Assembly (NCBI GenBank): GCA_021731815.1
Contig: JAKFWO010000048.1
Coordinates: forward strand, 1 to 51,533
Reading direction: 5' to 3'
Length of the DNA stretch: 51,533 bases
DNA from: Hyphomonadaceae bacterium
GTDB taxonomy: Bacteria > Pseudomonadota > Alphaproteobacteria > Caulobacterales > Aquidulcibacteraceae
Below the pieces are notes generated by a model. It did no database searches. It was given only the letters and a program-made list of their open reading frames with translations, and had not been told where the DNA came from. Shown here piece by piece: positions 6,504 through 31,002 of this stretch; position 1 is the first letter of the stretch, and every line of letters starts with the position of its first letter. The translations under genes and the position numbers were made by a program.

Positions 6504-9500
6504 ATGAAGCACCGTGAAATCACGCTCGAGGACAAATATTCGCTCGAGGAAGGTGAAACCTTCATCACGGGCGTGCAGGCGCTGGTCCGCCTGCCCCTGG
6601 AACAGGCGCGGCGCGATCGCGCCGCCGGCATCAACAGTGCGGGTTTCATCTCGGGCTATCGCGGCTCGCCGCTGGGTGGCTATGACCAGCAGATCCGCCG
6701 GGCCGGGAAATTCATGGCGGCGCATAATATCCATTTGCGTGAGGGTCTGAACGAGGATCTCGGTGCCACCGCGGTGTGGGGCTCCCAGCAGATCGGCCTG
6801 TTCGATGGTGCGCTGTATGATGGCGTGTTCGGTATCTGGTACGGCAAGGCCCCCGGGGTCGATCGGACGGGCGATGTGTTCAAGCATGCCAATTTCGCAG
6901 GCACCTCGCGCTTTGGCGGCGTTCTGGCCTTGGCCGGTGACGACCATAATTGCAAAAGCTCGACCCTGCCGTCGCAATCGGAATTTGCCTTTGCCGATGC
7001 CGAGATTCCGGTCCTCAACCCGGCCTCCATCCAGGACGTGCTGGATTACGGACTCATGGGGCTGGCGATGTCGCGCTTTTCGGGCGCATGGACCGGGCTG
7101 ATCGCACTCGCCGACACGATGGATTCGGGCGCGGTGATTTCGGTGGATCGCCGGCGGTTTGAAATTCGCCTGCCCGAAGCGGTCCCTGACGTGCAAATCC
7201 GTCGCGCGGATGATCCCATGGCCAAGGAATGGCGTCTGCGGCGGCTGAAATTGCCGGCTGCCCAGGAATTTGTGCGGCTGAACGGGCTCGACCGGCCTCT
7301 GCTCGAGGCGAAGAACCGGAAGCTGGGGATCGTTGCGACCGGTCAGGCGGTGCGCGACATCTTCGAGGCGCTGGACGCCATCGGCGTAACACCGGCCGAG
7401 GCCGCCGATCTCGGCCTGAGCGTGTTCAAGGTCGCCATGCCCTGGCCGCTCGAGCCCCATGCCTTCCGGGCCTTTGCCGCCGGTCACGAGACCCTGCTGG
7501 TGATCGAGCACAAGCGTTCCCTGATCGAGGCCCAGGCCAAGGCGGTGCTCTATGGCATGCCCGATGCGCCGCGGATCATTGGCAAGCATGACGAGCAGGA
7601 TGCGCCCTTGCTGTCGGATATCGGCTCGATCCCGATTGCCGCGATCGCCAAAGTGCTGTTCGAGCGTCTGCCCGACGGGCCGCATTCCGAACGCGCCCGC
7701 GCCTATTTTGCGCGGCTGGCCAAATCGGGCCTGTATGCCGCCAATGAGCACGCCGAAATCTATCGCAAGCCGCATTATTGCTCGGGCTGTCCGCATAATA
7801 CTTCGACGGTCACGCCGGAAGGCTCGCGCGCGCTGGCCGGCATTGGCTGCCATTATATGGCAACCTTTATGGGCCGGGCGGACATGACCTCGCAAATGGG
7901 GGGCGAGGGCGTGGCATGGATCGGTCAGGCCCCCTTCACCAGCGAAAAACACGTCTTCGTCAATCTGGGCGACGGGACCTATTCGCATTCGGGCTCGCTG
8001 GCCATCCGCGCGGCGGTCGCCGGCAAGGCCCGGATCACCTACAAGATCCTCTATAATTCCGCGGTGGCGATGACCGGCGGCCAGGAAGTGGAGATGCAGG
8101 TCGCCCCGTGGGAGATCGCCCGCCAGTTGCGGGGCGAGGGGGTGGATACCATCTTCATCGTGGCCGACGATCTTGCCCGCTATCGTGGCGTGTCGCTGCC
8201 CCAGGGGGTGCAATTGCGCCATCGCCGCGATCTCGACGCCGTGCAGCGCCAGCTGCGCGAGGTCCCCGGGGTCTCGGTCCTCATCTATGACCAGATGTGT
8301 GCCACCGAAAAGCGCCGCAAGATCAAGCGCGGGCAGATGCAGGCGCGCGAACAGCGGGCCTTCATCAATTCCGACGTGTGCGAGGGCTGCGGCGATTGTT
8401 CGCGCGTGTCCAATTGCCTGTCGATCGAACCGCTGGAAACCGAACTCGGCCGCAAGCGCCAGATCAATCAGAGTTCCTGCAATCAGGATCTGCGCTGCGT
8501 AGACGGATTCTGCCCGTCTTTCGTCTCGGTCGGCGGAAGCATCAATGCCAAAACCCTGAAGCGTCGCCCTGATTTCGACGCCCAGCGTCTGCCCTTGCCG
8601 GAGCATTTCGCGATGCCCCGCGCCTATAATATCGTGTTTGCCGGGGTTGGCGGCACGGGGGTCACGACCATCGCCGCGATCATCGGCATGGCGGCCCATA
8701 TCGATGGCCGCGCATCCTCGACACTCGACATGACCGGGCTCGCCCAAAAAGGCGGCGCGGTGACCAGCCATGTCCGCATCGCTGAAAATGCAGCCGATAT
8801 TCGTTCGGGCCGGATTCCGGCGGCCTCGGCCGATGTGGTGGTGGCCTGCGATCTGGTGGTCGCAACGAGTGCGGAAGCCCTTGTGCTCTATGATTCCGGG
8901 CGCACCATGGCCTTCGGAAATTCCGACATCACCCCGACCGCGGAATTTGTGTTCGACCGCGCAAAGCGCTTCGACTCGCCCGATCTGCAAAAGCGCATCG
9001 GAACGGCGGTCCATGGTTTCGAGGTGATCGCGGCCGAGGCACTGGCCGCGGAATATCTCTATGACCAGGTCTATTCCAACATGATCATGCTGGGCTATGC
9101 GTGGCAAAAGGGAACCATCCCTGTGACCTTGCGTGCGCTCTATCGGGCGATCAAGCTCAATGGAGTGGCGGTCGAGGACAATATGACCGCCTTCGATCTG
9201 GGGCGGATTGCCGGAGCCGAGCCCCGTCGTCTGCGGGAGTTGCTGCCGCCACGCCAGGAAATCGCGGAACCGGGGCTCGATCATCTGATCGAGGACCGCG
9301 CCGAAAGACTCATCGGCTGGCAGGATGCGGCTTACGCCCAGCGCTTCCGCGATGTCGTGTCGCGGGTGCGCATCGCTGAATCACGCCTGCCGGGGGCGGG
9401 CGACGCCCTGTCGCGCGCCGTGGCACGCTATGCCTACAAGCTCATGGCCTATAAGGACGAATATGAGGTCGCGCGGCTGTATACCAATGGCAAATGGCGC

Positions 9501-9959
9501 GAGGACCTCGGCCGGACTTTTGCGGGCAAATATTCAATGACATTCCACATGGCACCGCCATTGTTTGCGCCGAAGGACAAGGGCACGGGCCATCCGCGCA
9601 AGATCACCCTGCCGGGCTGGCTGGCCTTGCCTGCCTTTCATATGCTCGCCCGGTTGAAATTCCTGCGCCAGCACCGCTTCGATCCCTTTGGCTGGACCAG
9701 CGAACGCAGGGCCGAGCGTGCCTTGCGCGATGATTATCTGCGCCTGATGGAGGAAATCGCGGATCATCTCAGTCCGACGAATGCAGCGATCGCGCTGAAG
9801 CTCGCCGCAATCCCGGATTCCATCCGCGGCTATGGGCATGTCAAGGAAGCCTCGATGAAAGAGGTCGTCGGGATTCGTGACCGTCTGCTCGCTACGTTCC
9901 GCAAGAAGGGCGAAAAGGCCGGCCAGGATTCTGAAAAGGCCGAAGCCATCGCGGGATAG
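6504..9959 (+). CDS. Indolepyruvate ferredoxin oxidoreductase, fused alpha-beta protein
   Basis: An 1151-residue fusion of the IorA and IorB parts, which oxidatively decarboxylates aryl-pyruvates (from Trp, Phe, Tyr) to acyl-CoA with reduction of an electron carrier. In order: an N-terminal pyrimidine-binding-like domain, Cys426-x2-Cys429, the thiamine-diphosphate site around GDGTYSHSGSLA (about 489-500), a cysteine cluster CEGCGDCSRVSNC (from about 626) and more cysteines to about 675, the gamma domain with VFAGVGGTGVTT (near 710), and a DUF6537-like C-terminal region. The length fits the bacterial fused type. The ATG at 6504 has AGGA about 13 nt before it; a start at 6450 is less likely. 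Divergent from an Lrp regulator. Confidence 0.93.
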   Translation: MKHREITLEDKYSLEEGETFITGVQALVRLPLEQARRDRAAGINSAGFISGYRGSPLGGYDQQIRRAGKFMAAHNIHLREGLNEDLGATAVWGSQQIGLFDGALYDGVFGIWYGKAPGVDRTGDVFKHANFAGTSRFGGVLALAGDDHNCKSSTLPSQSEFAFADAEIPVLNPASIQDVLDYGLMGLAMSRFSGAWTGLIALADTMDSGAVISVDRRRFEIRLPEAVPDVQIRRADDPMAKEWRLRRLKLPAAQEFVRLNGLDRPLLEAKNRKLGIVATGQAVRDIFEALDAIGVTPAEAADLGLSVFKVAMPWPLEPHAFRAFAAGHETLLVIEHKRSLIEAQAKAVLYGMPDAPRIIGKHDEQDAPLLSDIGSIPIAAIAKVLFERLPDGPHSERARAYFARLAKSGLYAANEHAEIYRKPHYCSGCPHNTSTVTPEGSRALAGIGCHYMATFMGRADMTSQMGGEGVAWIGQAPFTSEKHVFVNLGDGTYSHSGSLAIRAAVAGKARITYKILYNSAVAMTGGQEVEMQVAPWEIARQLRGEGVDTIFIVADDLARYRGVSLPQGVQLRHRRDLDAVQRQLREVPGVSVLIYDQMCATEKRRKIKRGQMQAREQRAFINSDVCEGCGDCSRVSNCLSIEPLETELGRKRQINQSSCNQDLRCVDGFCPSFVSVGGSINAKTLKRRPDFDAQRLPLPEHFAMPRAYNIVFAGVGGTGVTTIAAIIGMAAHIDGRASSTLDMTGLAQKGGAVTSHVRIAENAADIRSGRIPAASADVVVACDLVVATSAEALVLYDSGRTMAFGNSDITPTAEFVFDRAKRFDSPDLQKRIGTAVHGFEVIAAEALAAEYLYDQVYSNMIMLGYAWQKGTIPVTLRALYRAIKLNGVAVEDNMTAFDLGRIAGAEPRRLRELLPPRQEIAEPGLDHLIEDRAERLIGWQDAAYAQRFRDVVSRVRIAESRLPGAGDALSRAVARYAYKLMAYKDEYEVARLYTNGKWREDLGRTFAGKYSMTFHMAPPLFAPKDKGTGHPRKITLPGWLALPAFHMLARLKFLRQHRFDPFGWTSERRAERALRDDYLRLMEEIADHLSPTNAAIALKLAAIPDSIRGYGHVKEASMKEVVGIRDRLLATFRKKGEKAGQDSEKAEAIAG

Positions 9960-10018
9960 CGTGTTTTCAACAAATGTAGTCGCAGTTTTGTGTCGGTAAG
10001 CGCGCTAATTCGATAGTT

Positions 10019-10070
10019 TGGACCGCTTTCAGGGCGGAAGACTGGCGTCCCGTTTCCTGAAGGCGGTCTA
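10019..10070. terminator. Large stem-loop between convergent genes
   Basis: 10021-10033 (gaccgctttcagg) pairs with 10056-10068 (cctgaaggcggtc) through 13 positions with one G-T wobble; a further wobble and an A-T pair extend the stem to about 15. The loop is 22 nt. There is no T-run, so a Rho-independent role is uncertain. It lies between the IOR gene and maiA, which converge. Confidence 0.5.
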
Positions 10071-10114
10071 TTCCGCTGACGGGCCCAGTGGCGCTGGCCC
10101 AAGGGTAACCCGAA

Positions 10115-10816
10115 TCATTGCGCGGGGGGAGCATCCGGCTGGCGCTCGGGGGCGGTATCGGCAAAGGCCGGAAGGGACAGACAGGCCGCTTCTACTTCGC
10201 CCAGCAGCGGGAAGGGCGCGAGGTCGAGTTGGAAGCGCCGGGCATTGTAAAGCTGCGGGATCAGGCAGATTTCCGCAAACCCCGGGGCCTCGCCAAAGAT
10301 AAAACCGGATTGGTACCCGCGCCGGCGCAAATTCTCCTCCAGCGGGCCGAGGCCAATCCGCAGCCATTCCTGACACCAGGCGCTGATCGCGGCGTCGTCG
10401 GCCATAAATTGCCGGCGCAGAAAAGAGAGCACGCTGACATTGTTGAGCGGATGGATGTCGCAGGCAATGGACAGGGCGAAGGCGCGGGCCGCGGCGCGCC
10501 CGGTGGGATCGGCCGGCAAAAAGGCAGGCCGCGGCCGGATTTCGTCCAGCCATTCAAGGATGGCGAGCGATTGGGTGAGCAGAACCGGCGGATCCTGCGC
10601 GAGGACCAAAGCGGGCACCCGCCCCTGGGGATTGATCGCCCGCCAGGCCTCGCCCGATTGCTCGCTTATCGCGGGGGCGAGATTGACCGCAATCCGGGAA
10701 AACCCCTCAGGCCCGGCAAATCCTCCCGCGCCCGGAAATCCCTTGAGTGCCAGCCCGATGCGCACACGCCAGCCCGCCGAAGACCGCCAATAATCGTAAA
10801 ACAATCCCTGCGACAT
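10115..10816 (-). CDS. maiA: Maleylacetoacetate isomerase (zeta-class glutathione transferase)
   Basis: A 233-residue glutathione S-transferase. It has the zeta-class SSAGWRVRIGLALKG motif (residues 12-26), with the active-site serines at its start, then INPQGRVPALVL and LTQSLAILEWLDE of the thioredoxin-like domain, then an all-helical C-terminal domain. The enzyme converts maleylacetoacetate to fumarylacetoacetate in tyrosine breakdown. Divergence from phenylalanine 4-hydroxylase supports this assignment over other GST classes. The ATG at 10816 is chosen because the family motif starts at once after it; a longer frame upstream would run into the phhA control region. Confidence 0.88.
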   Translation of the reverse strand: MSQGLFYDYWRSSAGWRVRIGLALKGFPGAGGFAGPEGFSRIAVNLAPAISEQSGEAWRAINPQGRVPALVLAQDPPVLLTQSLAILEWLDEIRPRPAFLPADPTGRAAARAFALSIACDIHPLNNVSVLSFLRRQFMADDAAISAWCQEWLRIGLGPLEENLRRRGYQSGFIFGEAPGFAEICLIPQLYNARRFQLDLAPFPLLGEVEAACLSLPAFADTAPERQPDAPPAQ

Positions 10817-10974
10817 GATCGGCTCCCTGTTGCGTGTTTTTGCAAAAACCTTTGCCCTGTGTGGCGTTGAAGCCCACGCTATTTGCAACGACTTTGCAAG
10901 ATGGAGCGTTTAGCCTCATATCGGGAATTGGCTCAATCGCTGTGCCCGGCCGCCCGAAACCACCAGAGAGTTCC
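10817..10974. promoter_or_regulatory. maiA/phhA divergent control region with TTTGCAA motifs
   Basis: The 158-bp gap holds a perfect 14-bp palindrome GTTTTTGCAAAAAC (10836-10849) and two direct copies of TTTGCAA at 10882-10888 and 10893-10899, whose starts are 11 bp apart, about one helical turn. The palindrome also contains TTTGCAA (10839-10845). Recurrence of one motif three times in a divergent promoter suggests an operator array; the regulator is unknown. Confidence 0.5.
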
Positions 10975-11907
10975 ATGTCTGATCATCCCGCGACATCCCA
11001 AACCCTTACCCCGCGCGGGGCTGGCATTCTCGCTGAACCCGAGGCGGAGTTCGGACCCGATTTCGTGGTCCCCCAGCATTGGGACCGCTATAGTCCGGAA
11101 GAACACGCCGTGTGGGATCGGCTCTATCGACGGCAGGCGGAATTGCTACCGGGGCGCGCGGCCCCGGAATTTCTGGCGGGGCTTGCGGCGCTCAATCTCA
11201 ATCGCGGCGGGATTCCCGATTTTGAGGCCATCAACCGCGATTTGCAGGCGCTGACCGGCTGGAGCGTGGTCGCGGTGCCCTGCCTCGTACCGGACGCGAT
11301 TTTTTTCGAGCATCTCGCCAATCGCCGCTTTCCGGCCGGCCGGTTCATCCGCAAGCCGCAGGAACTGGATTATATCGAGGAGCCGGATGTCTTTCATGAC
11401 GTGTTCGGCCATGTGCCCATGCTGACCAATCCGGTCTTCGCCGATTATATGGAGGCCTATGGCAAAGGCGGCCTGCGGTCGCTGGGCTTTGATGCGCTGC
11501 CCAATCTCGCACGGCTTTATTGGTACACGGTGGAGTTCGGCCTGATCAACCGGCCCGAAGGCCTGCGCATTTATGGTGCGGGGATCGCATCGAGCCATGC
11601 TGAAAGCATTTTTGCGCTGGAAAATTCATCGCCCAACCGCATGCATTTCCAGCTCGAACGCGTGATGCGTACCCGCTACCGGATCGATGATTTCCAGCAA
11701 AATTATTTTGTCATCGACAGTTTCGAGGAATTGTTCGACGCGACCTATCAGGATTTTGCGGCGCTCTATGCGCGTCTGCCAGGGCTTGCCACATTCGCAC
11801 CCGAGCAGATCGTGCCCGGGGACCGGCTCTATCAGCACGGCGACCAGGCCTATGCCAATTCAGGCGGGCGGTTCGGGAATGAAGGCAAAAGCACCAGCCC
11901 CGTTTGA
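10975..11907 (+). CDS. phhA: Phenylalanine 4-hydroxylase
   Basis: A 310-residue, pterin-dependent, non-heme iron hydroxylase that converts phenylalanine to tyrosine. The iron ligands are His141 and His146 in HDVFGHVP and Glu187 in WYTVEFGL; their spacing (5 and 41) equals that in characterised bacterial enzymes. The substrate-site segment SSHAESIFAL follows. The protein lacks the N-terminal ACT regulatory domain of the mammalian enzyme, as is normal for bacteria. The ATG at 10975 puts about 70 residues before the catalytic region; an earlier in-frame start is possible but would overlap the operator-like repeats. Confidence 0.95.
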   Translation: MSDHPATSQTLTPRGAGILAEPEAEFGPDFVVPQHWDRYSPEEHAVWDRLYRRQAELLPGRAAPEFLAGLAALNLNRGGIPDFEAINRDLQALTGWSVVAVPCLVPDAIFFEHLANRRFPAGRFIRKPQELDYIEEPDVFHDVFGHVPMLTNPVFADYMEAYGKGGLRSLGFDALPNLARLYWYTVEFGLINRPEGLRIYGAGIASSHAESIFALENSSPNRMHFQLERVMRTRYRIDDFQQNYFVIDSFEELFDATYQDFAALYARLPGLATFAPEQIVPGDRLYQHGDQAYANSGGRFGNEGKSTSPV

Positions 11908-11981
11908 GCTTGCCCCAACCTTCGGAACGAATGGGCATAGCCATCGCGGACAGGCCGGGGCCGGTTGTGGTCGGGAAAGTC

Positions 11982-13004
11982 TCAGAAATTTCGCGGGTCG
12001 ATCCGGTATTGGCGCGCGCAAAATTCGCATTTGGCATGAATCGTACCGTCTTCGGTCAGGGATTCGGCGATTTCATCGGCCGTGAAACGCGACAGAATGG
12101 CGCTGAGCCGGGCTTCGTTGCACGAACAGGCCTCCACCAATATCCGCGGCGGAAACAGCGCAATTCCTTCCTCATGGAACAGGCGGAACAACAAATCCCC
12201 GGGTGACACAGCGGGATCGACCAGTTCGGCGTCGCTGAGGGTCGAGAACAGGATGCCAATCCGGTTCCAGTCTTCCGAATCATCGGGGCGCGCTGCATCT
12301 CCGGCAAAGCGTTGAACCAGAATTCCGGCGGCGCGCCAGCTTTCGAGCCCGTTTTCGTCCACGAGCCGGGCCGAGGCGATGCGTAACAGCGCCTCCTGCT
12401 GCACGCTGCGGGCAAAGAAGCCGACCATGCATTCATCGAGGCGCGCACCTTCAAGCGGCGTCACACTCTGATAAAGCTCCGTGTCGGGACCCTGATCGAT
12501 GGTCAGGCTCATCAGGCCCTGCCCGGTCAGACTGTCGAGCGCCGGGCGCCGGCCGATTTCGGGAACCGGCAGTCGGGCGAGATCTGGCGTGCGCACATAG
12601 ATGCGCAGGCTGGCAGGCATGATTTCGGGCGCGAGTTTCTCCGACGCAAATTCCGCGATCATCATTGGCACCGGGCCATCGCCCTGGGCCTGGAGGATCA
12701 GGCGCCCCTCGAATTTGAGCGCTGCCCCCAGCAGCGCCGCCAGCACCAGTGCTTCGGCCGCGAGGCTCGCGACGACCGGGGGCAGATCATGGCGTTGCAG
12801 GATGGGATCGAGGCTGGCAATGCCCAGCCGCGCGGCCTGGCCATGGGCTGACGCTGCATCTTCTCCACCGAGCGTGAACGCGCCGACGAAATCCCCGCTC
12901 TGCCATGTTTCGTGCCCGGCTTCCGACGCGTCGCCGTTTTCGGGCCTTGCACGCCAGAAGGCGGGCAGTTCGGGTGGCACTTCGGGTGGGAGTGAATCGC
13001 TCAT
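11982..13004 (-). CDS. hslO: Redox-regulated chaperone Hsp33
   Basis: A 340-residue Hsp33 family protein, a cytoplasmic holdase switched on by oxidative unfolding. The C-terminal zinc switch is intact: CSC in VEACSCNEARLSAIL and CEFC near the C-terminus, the CxC plus CxxC pattern. The N-terminal domain motifs (GDFVGAFTLGGEDAASAHG) fit the family. Its start overlaps the argF stop by four bases (ATGA), so it is the last gene of an argD-argF-hslO operon, an order seen widely in alphaproteobacteria. The extra residues before LPAFWRARPENG are a low-complexity proline/glutamate stretch. Confidence 0.94.
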   Translation of the reverse strand: MSDSLPPEVPPELPAFWRARPENGDASEAGHETWQSGDFVGAFTLGGEDAASAHGQAARLGIASLDPILQRHDLPPVVASLAAEALVLAALLGAALKFEGRLILQAQGDGPVPMMIAEFASEKLAPEIMPASLRIYVRTPDLARLPVPEIGRRPALDSLTGQGLMSLTIDQGPDTELYQSVTPLEGARLDECMVGFFARSVQQEALLRIASARLVDENGLESWRAAGILVQRFAGDAARPDDSEDWNRIGILFSTLSDAELVDPAVSPGDLLFRLFHEEGIALFPPRILVEACSCNEARLSAILSRFTADEIAESLTEDGTIHAKCEFCARQYRIDPRNF

Positions 13005-27033: not shown

Positions 27034-27810
27034 CTAATCTGGTGTCAGGCAAACAGGGCACTCGGGATCCGGACGCAAGCGGGCAATGTGCGTCTCCATA
27101 CTCAACGCATTGAGAAACATCACACGGCCAATCAGGCTTTCGCCGGCACCGGTGACGAGCTTTATGGCCTCGAGCGCCATCAGGGTTCCGATCACGCCGG
27201 TCAGCGCCCCCACCACGCCGTCACGCGCGCAGAATTCGGCCTCTTCGGGAATTTCCGGAACAAGGCATTGATAGCAGGGTGATCTTTCTTCCCCGCGAGG
27301 CAAAGCCCGCCCGGACGCGAAAGTGGCGATCTGGCCGTCCCATCTTCCGACCGCTCCCGAGACAAGAATTTTTCCCAACCGGTGGGCAGCGGCGTTGACC
27401 ACATGGCGCGTCGCGAAAGTGTCGCTGCCATCGAGGACGAGATCGCAATCACCAAGCAAGTCGGCCGCGTTGCTGTCGTCGAGAGCGCTTGCATGGGCTT
27501 CGATCATCAGTGTCGGATTGAGTGCGCGCGCCGCTTCGGCCGAGATCTGCGCCTTTTCCGCACCGATATCGGCAGTGCGATAGATCACCTGGCGCTGGAG
27601 ATTGGACAGGCTGACCCGGTCAGGATCGATGACCCGGATGAAGCCGATGCCGGCCGCCGCGAGATAAAGCAGTGCCGGGGCTCCGAGCCCGCCCGCGCCC
27701 ACCAGCGCGATCCGCGCCGCGGCGAGCTTTTTCTGTCCCGGCCCGCCGATCTCTTTCAGCAGCAGATGGCGGGAATAGCGCTCGACATAATCATTGGACA
27801 AGTGTGACAC
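27034..27810 (-). CDS. moeB: Molybdopterin-synthase adenylyltransferase MoeB (ThiF/HesA family)
   Basis: A 258-residue E1-like enzyme that adenylates the C-terminus of MoaD in molybdenum-cofactor synthesis. It has the nucleotide-binding GAGGLG (38-43), the DRVSLSNLQRQ segment (64-74), and zinc ligands Cys179-x2-Cys182 and Cys251-x2-Cys254. There is no C-terminal rhodanese domain. No molybdenum-cofactor gene is adjacent, so a role in thiamine (ThiF) or another sulfur-carrier pathway cannot be excluded. The start is GTG. It diverges from the RyR-domain gene with 54 bp between the starts, which must hold both promoters. Confidence 0.88.
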   Translation of the reverse strand: MSHLSNDYVERYSRHLLLKEIGGPGQKKLAAARIALVGAGGLGAPALLYLAAAGIGFIRVIDPDRVSLSNLQRQVIYRTADIGAEKAQISAEAARALNPTLMIEAHASALDDSNAADLLGDCDLVLDGSDTFATRHVVNAAAHRLGKILVSGAVGRWDGQIATFASGRALPRGEERSPCYQCLVPEIPEEAEFCARDGVVGALTGVIGTLMALEAIKLVTGAGESLIGRVMFLNALSMETHIARLRPDPECPVCLTPD

Positions 27811-27864
27811 CAGCTCTCATCATGACCCCTCCCATCGATACAATTCCGGAAAGCGATACCGGAC

Positions 27865-28215
27865 ATGGTCCATTCTCAGGAAATTGAAAAGATCGCACGG
27901 ACCGTGCATGAAGCATTGCGCGCATGGGCCGCGGCCAATGGGCAGGTGCCGTATCCTGCCTGGCGCAGGGCACCAAAATGGATGAAGGATTCCTCGATCG
28001 AGAGCGTTCGCTACGTCCTCGAAAACCCGAAAGCTCAGGCGTCGGCCCAGCATGATCAATGGATGGCACAAAAAATCCGGGACGGTTGGAGATTCGGTGA
28101 AGTCAAGGATGCGGATAAAAAAACCCACCCCCTGCTGATTCCATATGAACAATTGCCTGAAATTGAGCGCAAGAAGGATGCATTGTTGAACGCAACAGTA
28201 CTGGCACTCGCGTGA
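27865..28215 (+). CDS. Stand-alone RyR-domain protein
   Basis: A 116-residue protein made almost wholly of a RyR (ryanodine-receptor repeat) domain. The signature is QHDQWMAQKIRDGWRFG (62-78), KTHPLLIPYEQLP (86-98) and a final DALLNATVLAL helix (105-115), preceded by HEALRAW and a WMKDSSIESVRYVLENP segment. From memory, single-domain proteins of this type occur in many bacteria and tailed phages, with no settled function. The gene has GGAAAG about 11 nt before the ATG. It is divergent from moeB and converges, with only 19 bp between stops, on a membrane protein that ends in a similar module. I infer a shared ligand or pathway. Confidence 0.82.
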   Translation: MVHSQEIEKIARTVHEALRAWAAANGQVPYPAWRRAPKWMKDSSIESVRYVLENPKAQASAQHDQWMAQKIRDGWRFGEVKDADKKTHPLLIPYEQLPEIERKKDALLNATVLALA

Positions 28216-28234
28216 ACACAAGAACACAACGCGG

Positions 28235-29968
28235 TTATTTTCCTGCTTTTTCCCCTCGTGGCTTGTTTTCATGCAAGGCCTTGTCGAGGGTCCTGATCGA
28301 GTCGAAATCATATTTCTGCGTATCTGAGTCCAGCGCGGCAAAATCGACGAGATCGGGATGGACCCGGTTGGCATTGTCCCGCACCACACCATGGCGCCAG
28401 CCATTCCAGCGCCGTTCGGCATTCCAGCGCACATGTTCGAGTTCTGCGAGTTTCGGGTGCAGGTCTTCGGTCACCAGGGAGATATCCTGCGGCAATTTCG
28501 GCAGATCTGGTTTTCCCCGCCACAGGGTCGGGTCGACGCCCGCGAAAGCCAGCTTGGCGGGGATATGTTTCACGACCGACCGATTGGAAATTCGATAAGT
28601 TTCTTTGAGCCTCGCCCATTCCTCGACCGCCGCTTTCCTGCCTGACGGCCCCCCCATCGGAGGTGTCGATCTCAGATATTGATAGTGATAGTCGCGGGCG
28701 GTGGCGTCTGCCGGGTGCTCGCCGAACGCAAACTCCGCAATCATCCGCCCGAAAGCGCCGCCGAAAGTCCCAAAGGGAATGATTCCGTCTTCGGGCACCG
28801 GGTCCATTGTCCGGTTTTGGGGATTCACTCCGGCGTCAACCCGGCTGAAGGCATTGGCCGCGGCCGACAACCAGACATGAATTGGGGTTGTGGCTGCGTT
28901 GAGATTACGCAATTGTGCCCGGACCCGCTCGAGGGTGCGCAGGGATTCATCTTCGTCCTCGAGACAGATATAAACCGCCCCCGGGCCCCGACTGACCAGG
29001 GAATTCACTGCGGCTCCGAGTCCGGTTTCTGCCGTCTGTTCGGAGAAGGGTTCGATCGCGCAGGTCTGCCCGATCTCGGGCACATGGGTGTTGAGGGCGC
29101 GGATGAGGCCATCCGCCCCGGAGCCAACCAGCGAAATCCGGGGAAGCGCGTGTGCGCTCACCACGCAATTCACTGCCAGATCCCAGATGACGGCTTCGGC
29201 GAGAGGACCGGTCCCCACAATGAGTGCAGCCAATTGCGGGCGGAATTTCTGTCCCTCGTCAAGGAAAGGCGGATGGGTGATGTGATGGGCGCGTATCGCG
29301 AGCCGTGGTAGCGACTCTACAGTAAAGGTCGCCACCTCCAGCCGATCGAGCCAGGCACTCGCCGATAAATGATCGGAAACCAGCGCGAAAATCCGGGCAT
29401 GAGGCTCGAGCAGATGCAGGTCCATTGCGTGCTGAAGGGTTTCAGCATCGGACTTTTCCATGATGAACGCGTGGGTCGCACCCACGCCATATTCCCGAAT
29501 AAAGTCGCCCTTGCGGTCGATATCCTCCCACGGCAGCGTCGTTAACTTACCTGATTTGTTAAACCCGTCGGCCCCCAGATGCAGCACGCATTTCCCGCGC
29601 TGGCTGGCAAATTCGGCGATCGCTTCGGCGAGCGGATGCCCGCCAATGACCAGCCCGATTCGTCGGCTGGCGCGCGCCCGCAGACGGATGATCATATCCC
29701 CGACGGCCAATAGCACTGCCCAGGCCGCCAGCAGCAAGGCGGTGACAAATCCCAGCCAGCGCACAATATGCAGCATTGGCCGGTCAAGATCCCCGATATC
29801 GCGATAGGTCTCGCTGAGCCCGAACGCCATGAACGAGTAATACAGGGCATCGGAAAAGGATTTTCCGTAAATCATCCATTCCCGGGTGCCGAGCACAAGC
29901 GTGCCCAGGGCTCCCAGCATCGCCAGAAAGAACAGTCTCCTTGGCAGGCTTTTTCGGCTCTGGTTCAT
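28235..29968 (-). CDS. Channel-like membrane protein with two Rossmann/RCK-like domains and a C-terminal RyR-like domain
   Basis: A 577-residue protein. Residues 11-27 form a membrane helix, 37-55 (SFSDALYYSFMAFGLSETY) sit where a pore loop would be, and 64-93 form a second membrane helix: a two-TM channel layout. The pore-like segment lacks the TVGYG potassium filter. Two NAD-binding-like folds follow, starting at RIGLVIGGHPLAEA (103-116) and AALIVGTGPLAEAV (247-260), resembling TrkA-N/RCK domains. Residues 447-477 and 508-565 (EHVRWNAERRWNGWRHG, VHPDLVDFAALD) match the RyR pattern. A ligand-gated ion channel or a membrane-bound NAD/nucleotide sensor is inferred. cysK lies 74 bp upstream on the same strand. 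Confidence 0.72.
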   Translation of the reverse strand: MNQSRKSLPRRLFFLAMLGALGTLVLGTREWMIYGKSFSDALYYSFMAFGLSETYRDIGDLDRPMLHIVRWLGFVTALLLAAWAVLLAVGDMIIRLRARASRRIGLVIGGHPLAEAIAEFASQRGKCVLHLGADGFNKSGKLTTLPWEDIDRKGDFIREYGVGATHAFIMEKSDAETLQHAMDLHLLEPHARIFALVSDHLSASAWLDRLEVATFTVESLPRLAIRAHHITHPPFLDEGQKFRPQLAALIVGTGPLAEAVIWDLAVNCVVSAHALPRISLVGSGADGLIRALNTHVPEIGQTCAIEPFSEQTAETGLGAAVNSLVSRGPGAVYICLEDEDESLRTLERVRAQLRNLNAATTPIHVWLSAAANAFSRVDAGVNPQNRTMDPVPEDGIIPFGTFGGAFGRMIAEFAFGEHPADATARDYHYQYLRSTPPMGGPSGRKAAVEEWARLKETYRISNRSVVKHIPAKLAFAGVDPTLWRGKPDLPKLPQDISLVTEDLHPKLAELEHVRWNAERRWNGWRHGVVRDNANRVHPDLVDFAALDSDTQKYDFDSIRTLDKALHENKPRGEKAGK

Positions 29969-30042
29969 TGCGGGATTTCCAGCAGCGTGGAGAAAACAAT
30001 CCGATCAAGGTCGCAGCGCGGCTGCGATGCGGCGGGTCCTTT

Positions 30043-31002
30043 TTACAATCCCTCGAACAGAGCCGACGAGATATAACGCTCCGCGAAGCTTGGCACAATA
30101 ACCACGATCCGCTTGCCCGCCATTTCCGGTCGCTGTCCGACTCTTACCGCCGCCCACAGGGCGGCCCCGGTGGAGATTCCGCCGGGCAGGCCCTCGATCC
30201 GCGCCGCCTCTCGTGCCATGGCAATGGCTTCTGCCTGCGGACAGCGGATAATCTCGTCATAGATGGCGATATCGAGGATCTCGGGCACGAAGCCCGCCCC
30301 GATCCCCTGGATCTTGTGCGGTCCGGGCGTTCCGCCTGACAGGATCGGGCTCTCATCGGGCTCGACTGCGACGATTCGCAATTCCGGCAGGCGTGGTTTC
30401 AGCGTCTGGCCCACACCGGTGATGGTCCCGCCCGTTCCGATCCCCGCGATGAAGACATCGAGCCTGCCGCCGGTATCGTTCCAGATTTCCTCGGCCGTGG
30501 TGCGGCGATGAATGTCGGGATTGGCGGGATTGGCAAATTGCTGGGGCATGACCGCCCCCGGTGTTTCGGCAAGCAACGCCTGGGCGCGCTCGACCGCGCC
30601 CTTCATGCCGAGGGCGGCCGGGGTCAGCACCAGTTCCGCCCCGAACAGAGCCAGCATCTTGCGGCGCTCGATCGACACCGATTCGGGCATGGTAATGATC
30701 AGGCGATAGCCGCGCGCGGCGGCCGCAAAGGCCAGGCCAATCCCGGTATTGCCCGATGTGGGCTCGATCATCACGCCGCCAGGCTGAAGCTGGCCGGTGG
30801 CCTCGAGCATGTCGATCATCGCTACGCCGATCCGGTCCTTGACCGAGGCAATCGGATTGAAAAATTCGAGCTTGGCAAGGATTTCGGCACCCGATCCTTT
30901 GGCCCGTTCAAGGCGATTCAGGCGGACCAGCGGCGTATCGCCAATGGTTTCCTCGATCGATTGATAGAGATGGCCGCGGCCGGGCTTGCCATGGGGGATC
31001 AC
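30043..31002 (-). CDS. cysK: Cysteine synthase A (O-acetylserine sulfhydrylase)
   Basis: A 319-residue fold-type II PLP enzyme that makes cysteine from O-acetylserine and sulfide. The PLP lysine is Lys55 in NPIASVKDRIG; the cofactor loop PTSGNTGIGLA covers 81-91 and the phosphate-binding GIGTGGTITG follows. The start is GTG with AGGAGA about 6 nt upstream. It lies upstream of the channel-like gene on the same strand with a 74-bp spacer, so co-transcription is possible but not shown. CysK rather than CysM is favoured by motif and length. Confidence 0.94.
   Translation of the reverse strand: MIPHGKPGRGHLYQSIEETIGDTPLVRLNRLERAKGSGAEILAKLEFFNPIASVKDRIGVAMIDMLEATGQLQPGGVMIEPTSGNTGIGLAFAAAARGYRLIITMPESVSIERRKMLALFGAELVLTPAALGMKGAVERAQALLAETPGAVMPQQFANPANPDIHRRTTAEEIWNDTGGRLDVFIAGIGTGGTITGVGQTLKPRLPELRIVAVEPDESPILSGGTPGPHKIQGIGAGFVPEILDIAIYDEIIRCPQAEAIAMAREAARIEGLPGGISTGAALWAAVRVGQRPEMAGKRIVVIVPSFAERYISSALFEGL

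Follow-up and report, generated by a model that had tools for sequence, protein, structure and literature searches.

A 51,533-bp stretch of DNA from a Hyphomonadaceae bacterium (contig JAKFWO010000048.1, positions 1 to 51,533; hereafter the window) encodes two proteins with a ryanodine receptor (RyR) domain, the small stand-alone RyR protein P0001 (116 residues) and the channel-like membrane protein P0002 (577 residues), whose genes lie tail to tail with a gap of 19 bp (28216-28234). We propose that the pair comprises the receiver (P0002) and the attenuator (P0001) of an NAD-derived immune signal and give this reading a probability of roughly one half (about 0.53). It builds on the gene positions, the RyR domains, the predicted architecture of P0002, the conserved residues of both proteins, the TIR genes beside relatives of P0002 and the phage-type kinship of P0001, all of which are established.

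An initial annotation, made from the letters of the DNA, had described RyR patterns in both proteins and their tail-to-tail arrangement, and the coordinates and Pfam scores agree with it. The RyR family PF02026 matches P0001 with 49.0 bits (E 7e-13, cut-off 27.4) and residues 500-565 of P0002 with 38.9 bits (E 1e-9). Nothing else in the 2.53-Mb genome (99.8% complete) matches RyR, and in a sample of the class such matches were found in 7 of 385 genomes, this one included, and in none of 14 control genomes. Since RyR is so rare in the class, two touching RyR genes are hardly a product of chance; a chance resemblance to RyR is ruled out by the Pfam scores together with this rarity. Nor is the pair unique to this genome: it recurs in G053, a genome of the same order but of another family, where a small RyR gene (8484-8846 of locus L024), a channel gene (8918-10654) and a gene for a TIR protein with membrane helices (10828-12843) are adjacent, and in Bacteroidota and Bacillota small RyR genes adjoin genes for RyR-tailed membrane proteins. 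The objection named in the initial annotation, that homologues of the two genes might not be neighbours in any other genome, is thereby answered. Two terminators were predicted, compared with 4.6 in shuffled sequences, and four promoter-like sites, compared with 1.6.

An AlphaFold model of P0002, built from 14 sequences (predicted local distance difference test 83.2, predicted template modelling score 0.80), contains helices at residues 7-33, 38-50 (pore-like), 53-61 (short) and 64-100, Rossmann folds starting at residues 105 and 247, and RyR helices at residues 503-521 and 548-567. The model and its structural matches thus agree with the pair of membrane helices and the two Rossmann-like folds that had been noticed in the sequence; simple hydropathy, at a threshold of our own, gave the second membrane helix only. 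With VIA-align, the model matched the gating rings of DMI1/CASTOR with Z 17.6-16.4 (root-mean-square deviation (rmsd) 3.8-4.5 Å over 304-310 residues), GsuK with Z 16.4 (12.1 Å over 380 residues) and TrkA, Slo1 and MthK with Z of about 11-15; for CASTOR, DMI1, GsuK and TrkA, which speak for tandem RCK domains, the range is Z 12-17.6. Foldseek ranked GsuK first (E 4e-7, 528 columns) and also listed RyR3 Repeat12 structures with, according to their titles, ATP or ADP. A profile of the 14-sequence family (A4) reached GsuK (E 7e-12) and MthK (E 8e-12, positions 21-219), and a profile that extends up to the first RCK domain (A6) matched MthK weakly (E 0.08), with the MthK motif TVGYGD opposite gdeyrd of the family. 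The kinship with profile families suggested for P0002 at the outset held for RyR and in part for TrkA_N, which has no Pfam match in P0002 itself yet is listed for 12 of the family's 14 sequences when matches up to a permissive E of 10 are admitted (the strongest at 2e-15). It did not hold for Ion_trans_2, which is absent from the 22 Pfam families listed for the family members. None of the 14 A4 sequences carries a TVGYG-type filter, and the missing filter, in whose place P0002 has SETYRDI, rules the protein out as an ordinary K+ channel. Judged from the model, P0002 has the build of an RCK-gated channel. Its filter is not that of a K+ channel, and since the filter is lost, ion conduction can only be inferred.

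Both RyR domains carry the ligand-site residues of RyDEP, a phage protein that destroys bacterial immune signals. According to the bioRxiv preprint describing it (PMC13232231, May 2026; PDB 35TM), on which all statements about RyDEP here rest, H75, W78, H100 and D117 of RyDEP bind and cleave cyclic ADP-ribose (cADPR) signals. The spacing of these residues, 3-22-17, is identical in P0001 (H63, W66, H88, D105) and in P0002 (H512, W515, H537, D554). When 58 RyR domains were aligned, all four were present in each of the 12 phage rows and each of the 4 P0001-type host rows, and in the 14 rows of the P0002 group the first histidine, the tryptophan, the second histidine and the aspartate are found 14, 14, 13 and 14 times. 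At the other loci, 13 long proteins gave corresponding counts of 13, 13, 11 and 8; going by these sequences, the missing aspartate in several of them could fit binding without cleavage, and P0002 keeps its aspartate. Six of eight RyDEP homologues bound cADPR signals and none of those homologues cleaved them (PMC13232231). The model of P0001 matched Repeat12 structures with Z 10.4, and GsuK is, according to its published abstract, activated by ADP and NAD+. The earlier proposal that the channel is gated by a nucleotide or NAD-derived signal is therefore supported indirectly, by the RyDEP residues in P0002, the TIR neighbours of its relatives and the GsuK-like fold; the ion conduction, the ligand and the role in defence that went with it are carried over here as inferences.

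TIR genes were searched for at 18 loci of the P0002 group, comprising the window, G053, the long-protein matches of G253, G175, G305, G129 and G093, and L075-L085, two of which (L083, L085) are, going by their titles, not from Alphaproteobacteria; G242, with an N-terminal RyR domain, and G150 and G262, with small RyR proteins only, were omitted. At ten of the 18 loci a TIR gene lies within 2.5 kb (L024, L068, L071, L075, L076, L077, L079, L080, L081, L082) and one further TIR lies at 2.5-10 kb (binomial p 4e-5). All ten near TIRs exceed the Pfam TIR_2 cut-off (L076, which is the same place as L023, via that copy), and five are encoded directly upstream on the same strand (L071, L075, L079, L080, L081). 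In whole genomes, TIR_2 matches numbered 1 in G175, 2 in G018, 3 in G053 and 6 in G093, and the single match of G175 lies 24 bp from the channel gene. Another 26 loci were counted, with L087 (the same place as L031) placed in a distant group of 640-aa proteins, L098 titled Glaciecola and hence not of another phylum, and L100 (a near copy of L101), L114 and L102 (no long RyR gene) omitted. Here a TIR was near in seven and far in three (p 0.02), and an eighth near TIR, at L112, was detected by Pfam only; our TIR profile thus misses some TIRs, near or far. A small RyR gene within 2.5 kb of a gene for an RyR-tailed membrane protein was found at five of the 26, all from Bacteroidota or Bacillota.

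The genome of the window has seven TIR_2 matches, on contigs C20, C36, C17, C28, C16, C8 and C9. Among six of its TIRs that were compared, one resembles the partner TIR of L082 (37% over 319 aa) and two that of L068 (30-31% over ~615 aa), so that partners in trans are possible. Across 37 genomes of the family, the median number of TIR_2 matches is 16 in the 22 with an RyR match and 1 in the 15 without (p 3e-6 when genomes are compared, 0.04 for the means of genera), a comparison in which genus confounds and matches are not strictly genes. Three mixed genera point in the same direction, but 9 and 13 matches occur in two genomes that lack RyR. Four family genomes with an RyR match (G020, G026, G032, G036) stood outside the comparison of long stretches. 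In the family (G000-G036), no genome exceeds 25 TIR_2 matches and TIR number tracks the presence of RyR genes.

Several observations weigh against a receiver and attenuator of a TIR-made signal. The window's own contig (C22) has no TIR_2 match, our TIR profile finds none in the window even at E 10, and the pair was matched neither by NCBIfam nor, in either protein, by PADLOC-DB 2023. The K+ filter of P0002 is degenerate or lost, and the Foldseek match to GsuK has a TM-score of 0.35 (query length) and an rmsd of 13.7 Å, from which it follows that the domains are arranged differently. Animal RyRs and non-cleaving, sponge-type phage proteins have the RyDEP residues as well (PMC13232231); the set therefore does not predict catalysis and points to the binding of adenine nucleotides and not of one ligand. 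Eight of the 18 loci lack a near TIR (the window, L067, L069, L070, L078, L083, L084, L085), three of the genomes concerned (G253, G305, G129) have no TIR_2 match at all, and the profile behind the count was seeded partly with the near TIRs. Where a locus ends close to the channel gene (L069, L078, L083, L084 and, among the 640-aa group, L027, L030, L039 and L040), the absence of a TIR carries little weight. In three of the five pairs from Bacteroidota and Bacillota (L096, L112, L113), Pfam RyR is not listed for the long protein, whose RyR domain was found by our own profile only (E 2e-5 to 4e-10). At the channel loci of two of the three genomes without a TIR_2 match, a SLATT_3/DUF4231 gene (L067) or a patatin gene (L070) is the neighbour, so the signal may differ there; SLATT, patatin and DUF4062 neighbours together suggest a wider range of signals and argue against a strictly TIR-made ligand. 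Finally, the 640-aa group, which belongs to the bacterium's own family, has a TIR within 2.5 kb at none of its 17 loci.

The last of these points would also fit a different explanation, in which P0002 is a housekeeping channel or a sensor of cellular NAD+, ADP or ATP and not an immune effector. GsuK is gated by ADP and NAD+ in this way, RyR3 Repeat12 structures hold ATP or ADP, going by their titles, and the TIR-free 640-aa group lies near the same neighbour gene at both loci inspected (L028, L036). Against a housekeeping role stand the TIR adjacency at ten of 18 close relatives, the patchy presence in the class (at most 9 of 385 genomes match a P0002 profile, some by a small RyR only), the variable insertion slot described below, the identity of only ~30% between families and the higher number of TIR_2 matches in RyR-positive genomes of the family, and we consider this role quite improbable.

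P0001 and P0002 differ in their kinship. P0001 is related to PHROG 5154 (E 3e-36) and matches 279 of 50,697 phage records, with a best identity of 49% among the matches listed (40 of 279), whereas P0002 matches none of these records at E 1e-5 and is unlikely to be a phage gene. A tree was computed from 58 RyR domains (78 columns), in which many forks are weak and RyDEP itself is not among the rows. In this tree, P0001 and the small G053 protein form a pair (98/93; 58% identity) within a group of 15 rows, 12 from phages and three from hosts (97/84). P0001 is thus placed in the phage-type clade but outside the subgroup of the 12 phage rows, and was probably acquired from a phage RyDEP lineage. 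This agrees with the original suggestion of a ligand sink, a regulator or a captured phage gene. P0002 and the channel of G053, which are 30% identical, sit within a group of 14 rows (97/94); their own pairing (94/78) is under the mark of the tree and is to be counted with the points against the proposal. The small RyR proteins of Bacteroidota and Bacillota form a separate group that includes both RyR proteins of G242 (99/97). A search of genome contigs with P0002 alone gave 20 stretches with no relative among them, and residues 1-70 of P0001, compared with the PDB, gave nothing useful.

With P0001 in the phage RyDEP-type clade, the gene might also be a phage gene against Thoeris, captured or left over, which came to lie beside an RyR channel gene by chance, with no joint function. 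In line with this, its GC content of 53.3% is in the lowest 2% of 351-bp windows and lies below that of P0002 (59.5%) and of the window (62.6%), which fits a later arrival of both genes but is by itself a weak sign; the cysK-thiF slot is variable, and in G150 a P0001-type gene has a patatin gene as its neighbour, while a search of that 18.5-kb stretch found no gene for an RyR channel. However, the small protein of the window groups with that of G053 (98/93), as do their channels, more weakly (94/78), and from this parallel grouping the pair has seemingly been kept or moved together while the gene order changed. Moreover, Bacteroidota and Bacillota have paired small RyR proteins of another clade with RyR-tailed membrane proteins. 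We regard a chance neighbourhood as unlikely. A third explanation starts from the dimer. RyDEP is a homodimer, Repeat12 of animal RyRs is a two-fold unit of tandem repeats (PMC13232231), and P0002 has only one RyR stretch; P0001 could then be a co-receptor that pairs with the RyR domain of P0002 to rebuild a two-fold Repeat12 and is needed for gating instead of serving as an off switch. This we regard as very unlikely, since a small RyR gene is missing from the 2.5 kb around the channel gene at 16 of the 18 loci of the P0002 group and P0002 could dimerise with itself.

In the proposed interplay of receiver and attenuator, a TIR protein, encoded in cis in many relatives and in trans here, would sense a threat and convert NAD+ to an ADP-ribose-type messenger, which would bind to the terminal RyR domain of P0002. 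The tandem-RCK gating ring would relay the binding to the two-helix pore without K+ filter; a leak or depolarisation would follow and halt cell and phage. P0001, with the same nucleotide-binding fold and the catalytic dyad of RyDEP, may hydrolyse or sequester the messenger and so set the threshold of the response or end it. The stricter version, in which an ADP-ribose signal from a TIR protein acts directly on the RyR domain to open a tandem-RCK channel that has no filter, and a host-owned glycosidase or sponge of the RyDEP type closes it, is put forward only tentatively and is rather doubtful as a whole. In the wider family, many TIR sensors may share, in trans, a single RyR channel encoded on the chromosome.

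It has long been debated whether cADPR acts on ryanodine receptors, and at which site. The RyDEP preprint reopens this question (PMC13232231), and a compact channel-like protein that has one RyR domain with the RyDEP ligand residues, and TIR enzymes beside many of its relatives, would make the gating of an RyR channel by a TIR product directly testable. If the stricter version is true, the bacterial RyR channel is a direct receptor of the cADPR family, and the Repeat12 site of animal RyRs may descend from such a sensor. On the proposed reading, an RCK channel would join the immune effectors, and bacteria would reuse a phage protein that destroys signals as an off switch. The novelty of the proposal is limited by the RyDEP preprint (PMC13232231). 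No literature was found that links an RyR domain with TrkA in bacteria, or, since 2020, Thoeris and TIR domains with a potassium channel, although absence from print is not claimed. RyR does not occur outside the reference lists in PMC13142454, PMC8195603, PMC7159879 and PMC9503650, nor does ryanodine in the last three.

Compared with known systems, P0001 shares with RyDEP and related phage proteins the RyR/Repeat12 fold, the residue set and spacing, a similar length and the clade; it differs from them as a gene of a bacterial genome beside a gene for an RyR-tailed, channel-like protein, and its activity is putative. P0002 resembles GsuK, MthK, Slo and CASTOR/DMI1 in the two membrane helices, the pore helix and the tandem RCK-like domains of its model, but has an appended RyR domain, has lost TVGYG and lacks a detectable TrkA_N. 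The likeness to Thoeris and other TIR-signal defence consists in the TIR gene beside the receiver in ten of 18 close relatives, whereas the receiver here is of RCK/RyR type and this genome has no TIR in cis. The ThsA receivers are of the SIR2-SLOG and macro-TM types. With animal ryanodine receptors the pair shares the RyR domain and the ligand residues, but P0002 has a single RyR domain in place of tandem repeats and the rest of the protein is different.

Table 1 Features of the RyR gene pair and its borders in the window
Feature	Position	Strand	Basis
thiF/moeB-like gene, one border of the slot	27034..27810	-	Pfam, comparison with relatives
P0001, 116-aa stand-alone RyR protein, phage RyDEP type	27865..28215	+	open reading frame, Pfam, tree, model
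P0001 RyR core, residues 57-106	28033..28182	+	Pfam PF02026
P0002, 577-aa membrane protein, predicted order TM1, pore helix, TM2 (TM, membrane helix), RCK1, RCK2, RyR	28235..29968	-	open reading frame, AlphaFold model, structural matches
P0002 C-terminal RyR domain, residues 500-567 (H512, W515, H537, D554)	28268..28471	-	Pfam, alignments
P0002 second Rossmann/RCK-like domain, about residues 247-419	28712..29230	-	model, structural matches
P0002 first Rossmann/RCK-like domain, about residues 102-234	29267..29665	-	model, structural matches
P0002 second membrane helix, residues 64-100	29669..29779	-	model, hydropathy
P0002 pore-like helix with the degenerate filter (SETYRDI, in MthK TVGYGDY), residues 38-61	29786..29857	-	model, alignment
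P0002 first membrane helix, residues 7-33	29870..29950	-	AlphaFold model, MthK alignment
cysK-like gene (PALP), which bounds the slot on the other side	30043..31002	-	Pfam, comparison with relatives

In this genome the pair occupies the space between cysK and thiF (27811-30042), a slot whose content varies among relatives and which is a small hotspot for cargo. The thiF gene was located in 17 of 20 relatives searched, and at eight of these 17 loci a cysK match lies in the 1.5-kb flank on the same strand, directly adjacent in G007, where the gap is nearly empty, and at a greater distance in the rest. The gap holds a PIN/MazE toxin-antitoxin and a GNAT gene in G010, a PIN gene in G006 and MarR-GNAT in G018; the others are short or unassigned.

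Further arrangements of RyR genes were seen in other genomes. In G053 a DUF4062-WD40 gene (L024, 14368-18927) starts ~1.5 kb past the TIR gene, and DUF4062 proteins are TIR-like NADases according to a recent study on Swarozyc (PMC13174449). On the Arcobacter plasmid CP146529.1 (L171, 5787-9510), TrkA_N, RyR and DUF4062 genes follow one another, flanked on either side by recombinase genes; this may be a split form of the channel with another NADase. A small RyR gene overlaps a TIR gene at L101 (6448-12244, Bacteroidales), with a gene for an RyR-tailed membrane protein 2.4 kb downstream on the same strand, and at L112 (7570-15990, Bacteroides) genes for an RyR-tailed membrane protein (by our own profile only), a small RyR protein, a TIR protein and an nSTAND1 protein cluster on one strand. 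At L042 (4859-5728, G002), an open reading frame of 289 aa has a P0001-type RyR C-terminus, the profile match crosses a TGA, and no channel gene lies within the stretch read. In G242 (L072, 6967-9894) the gene of a 795-aa RyR-TPR-S protein and a small RyR gene are divergent and form a different RyR pair, ~3-4 kb from a DUF4062 match, and the P0001-type small RyR gene of G150 (L074, 7720-9398) lies tail to tail with that of a patatin-like phospholipase.

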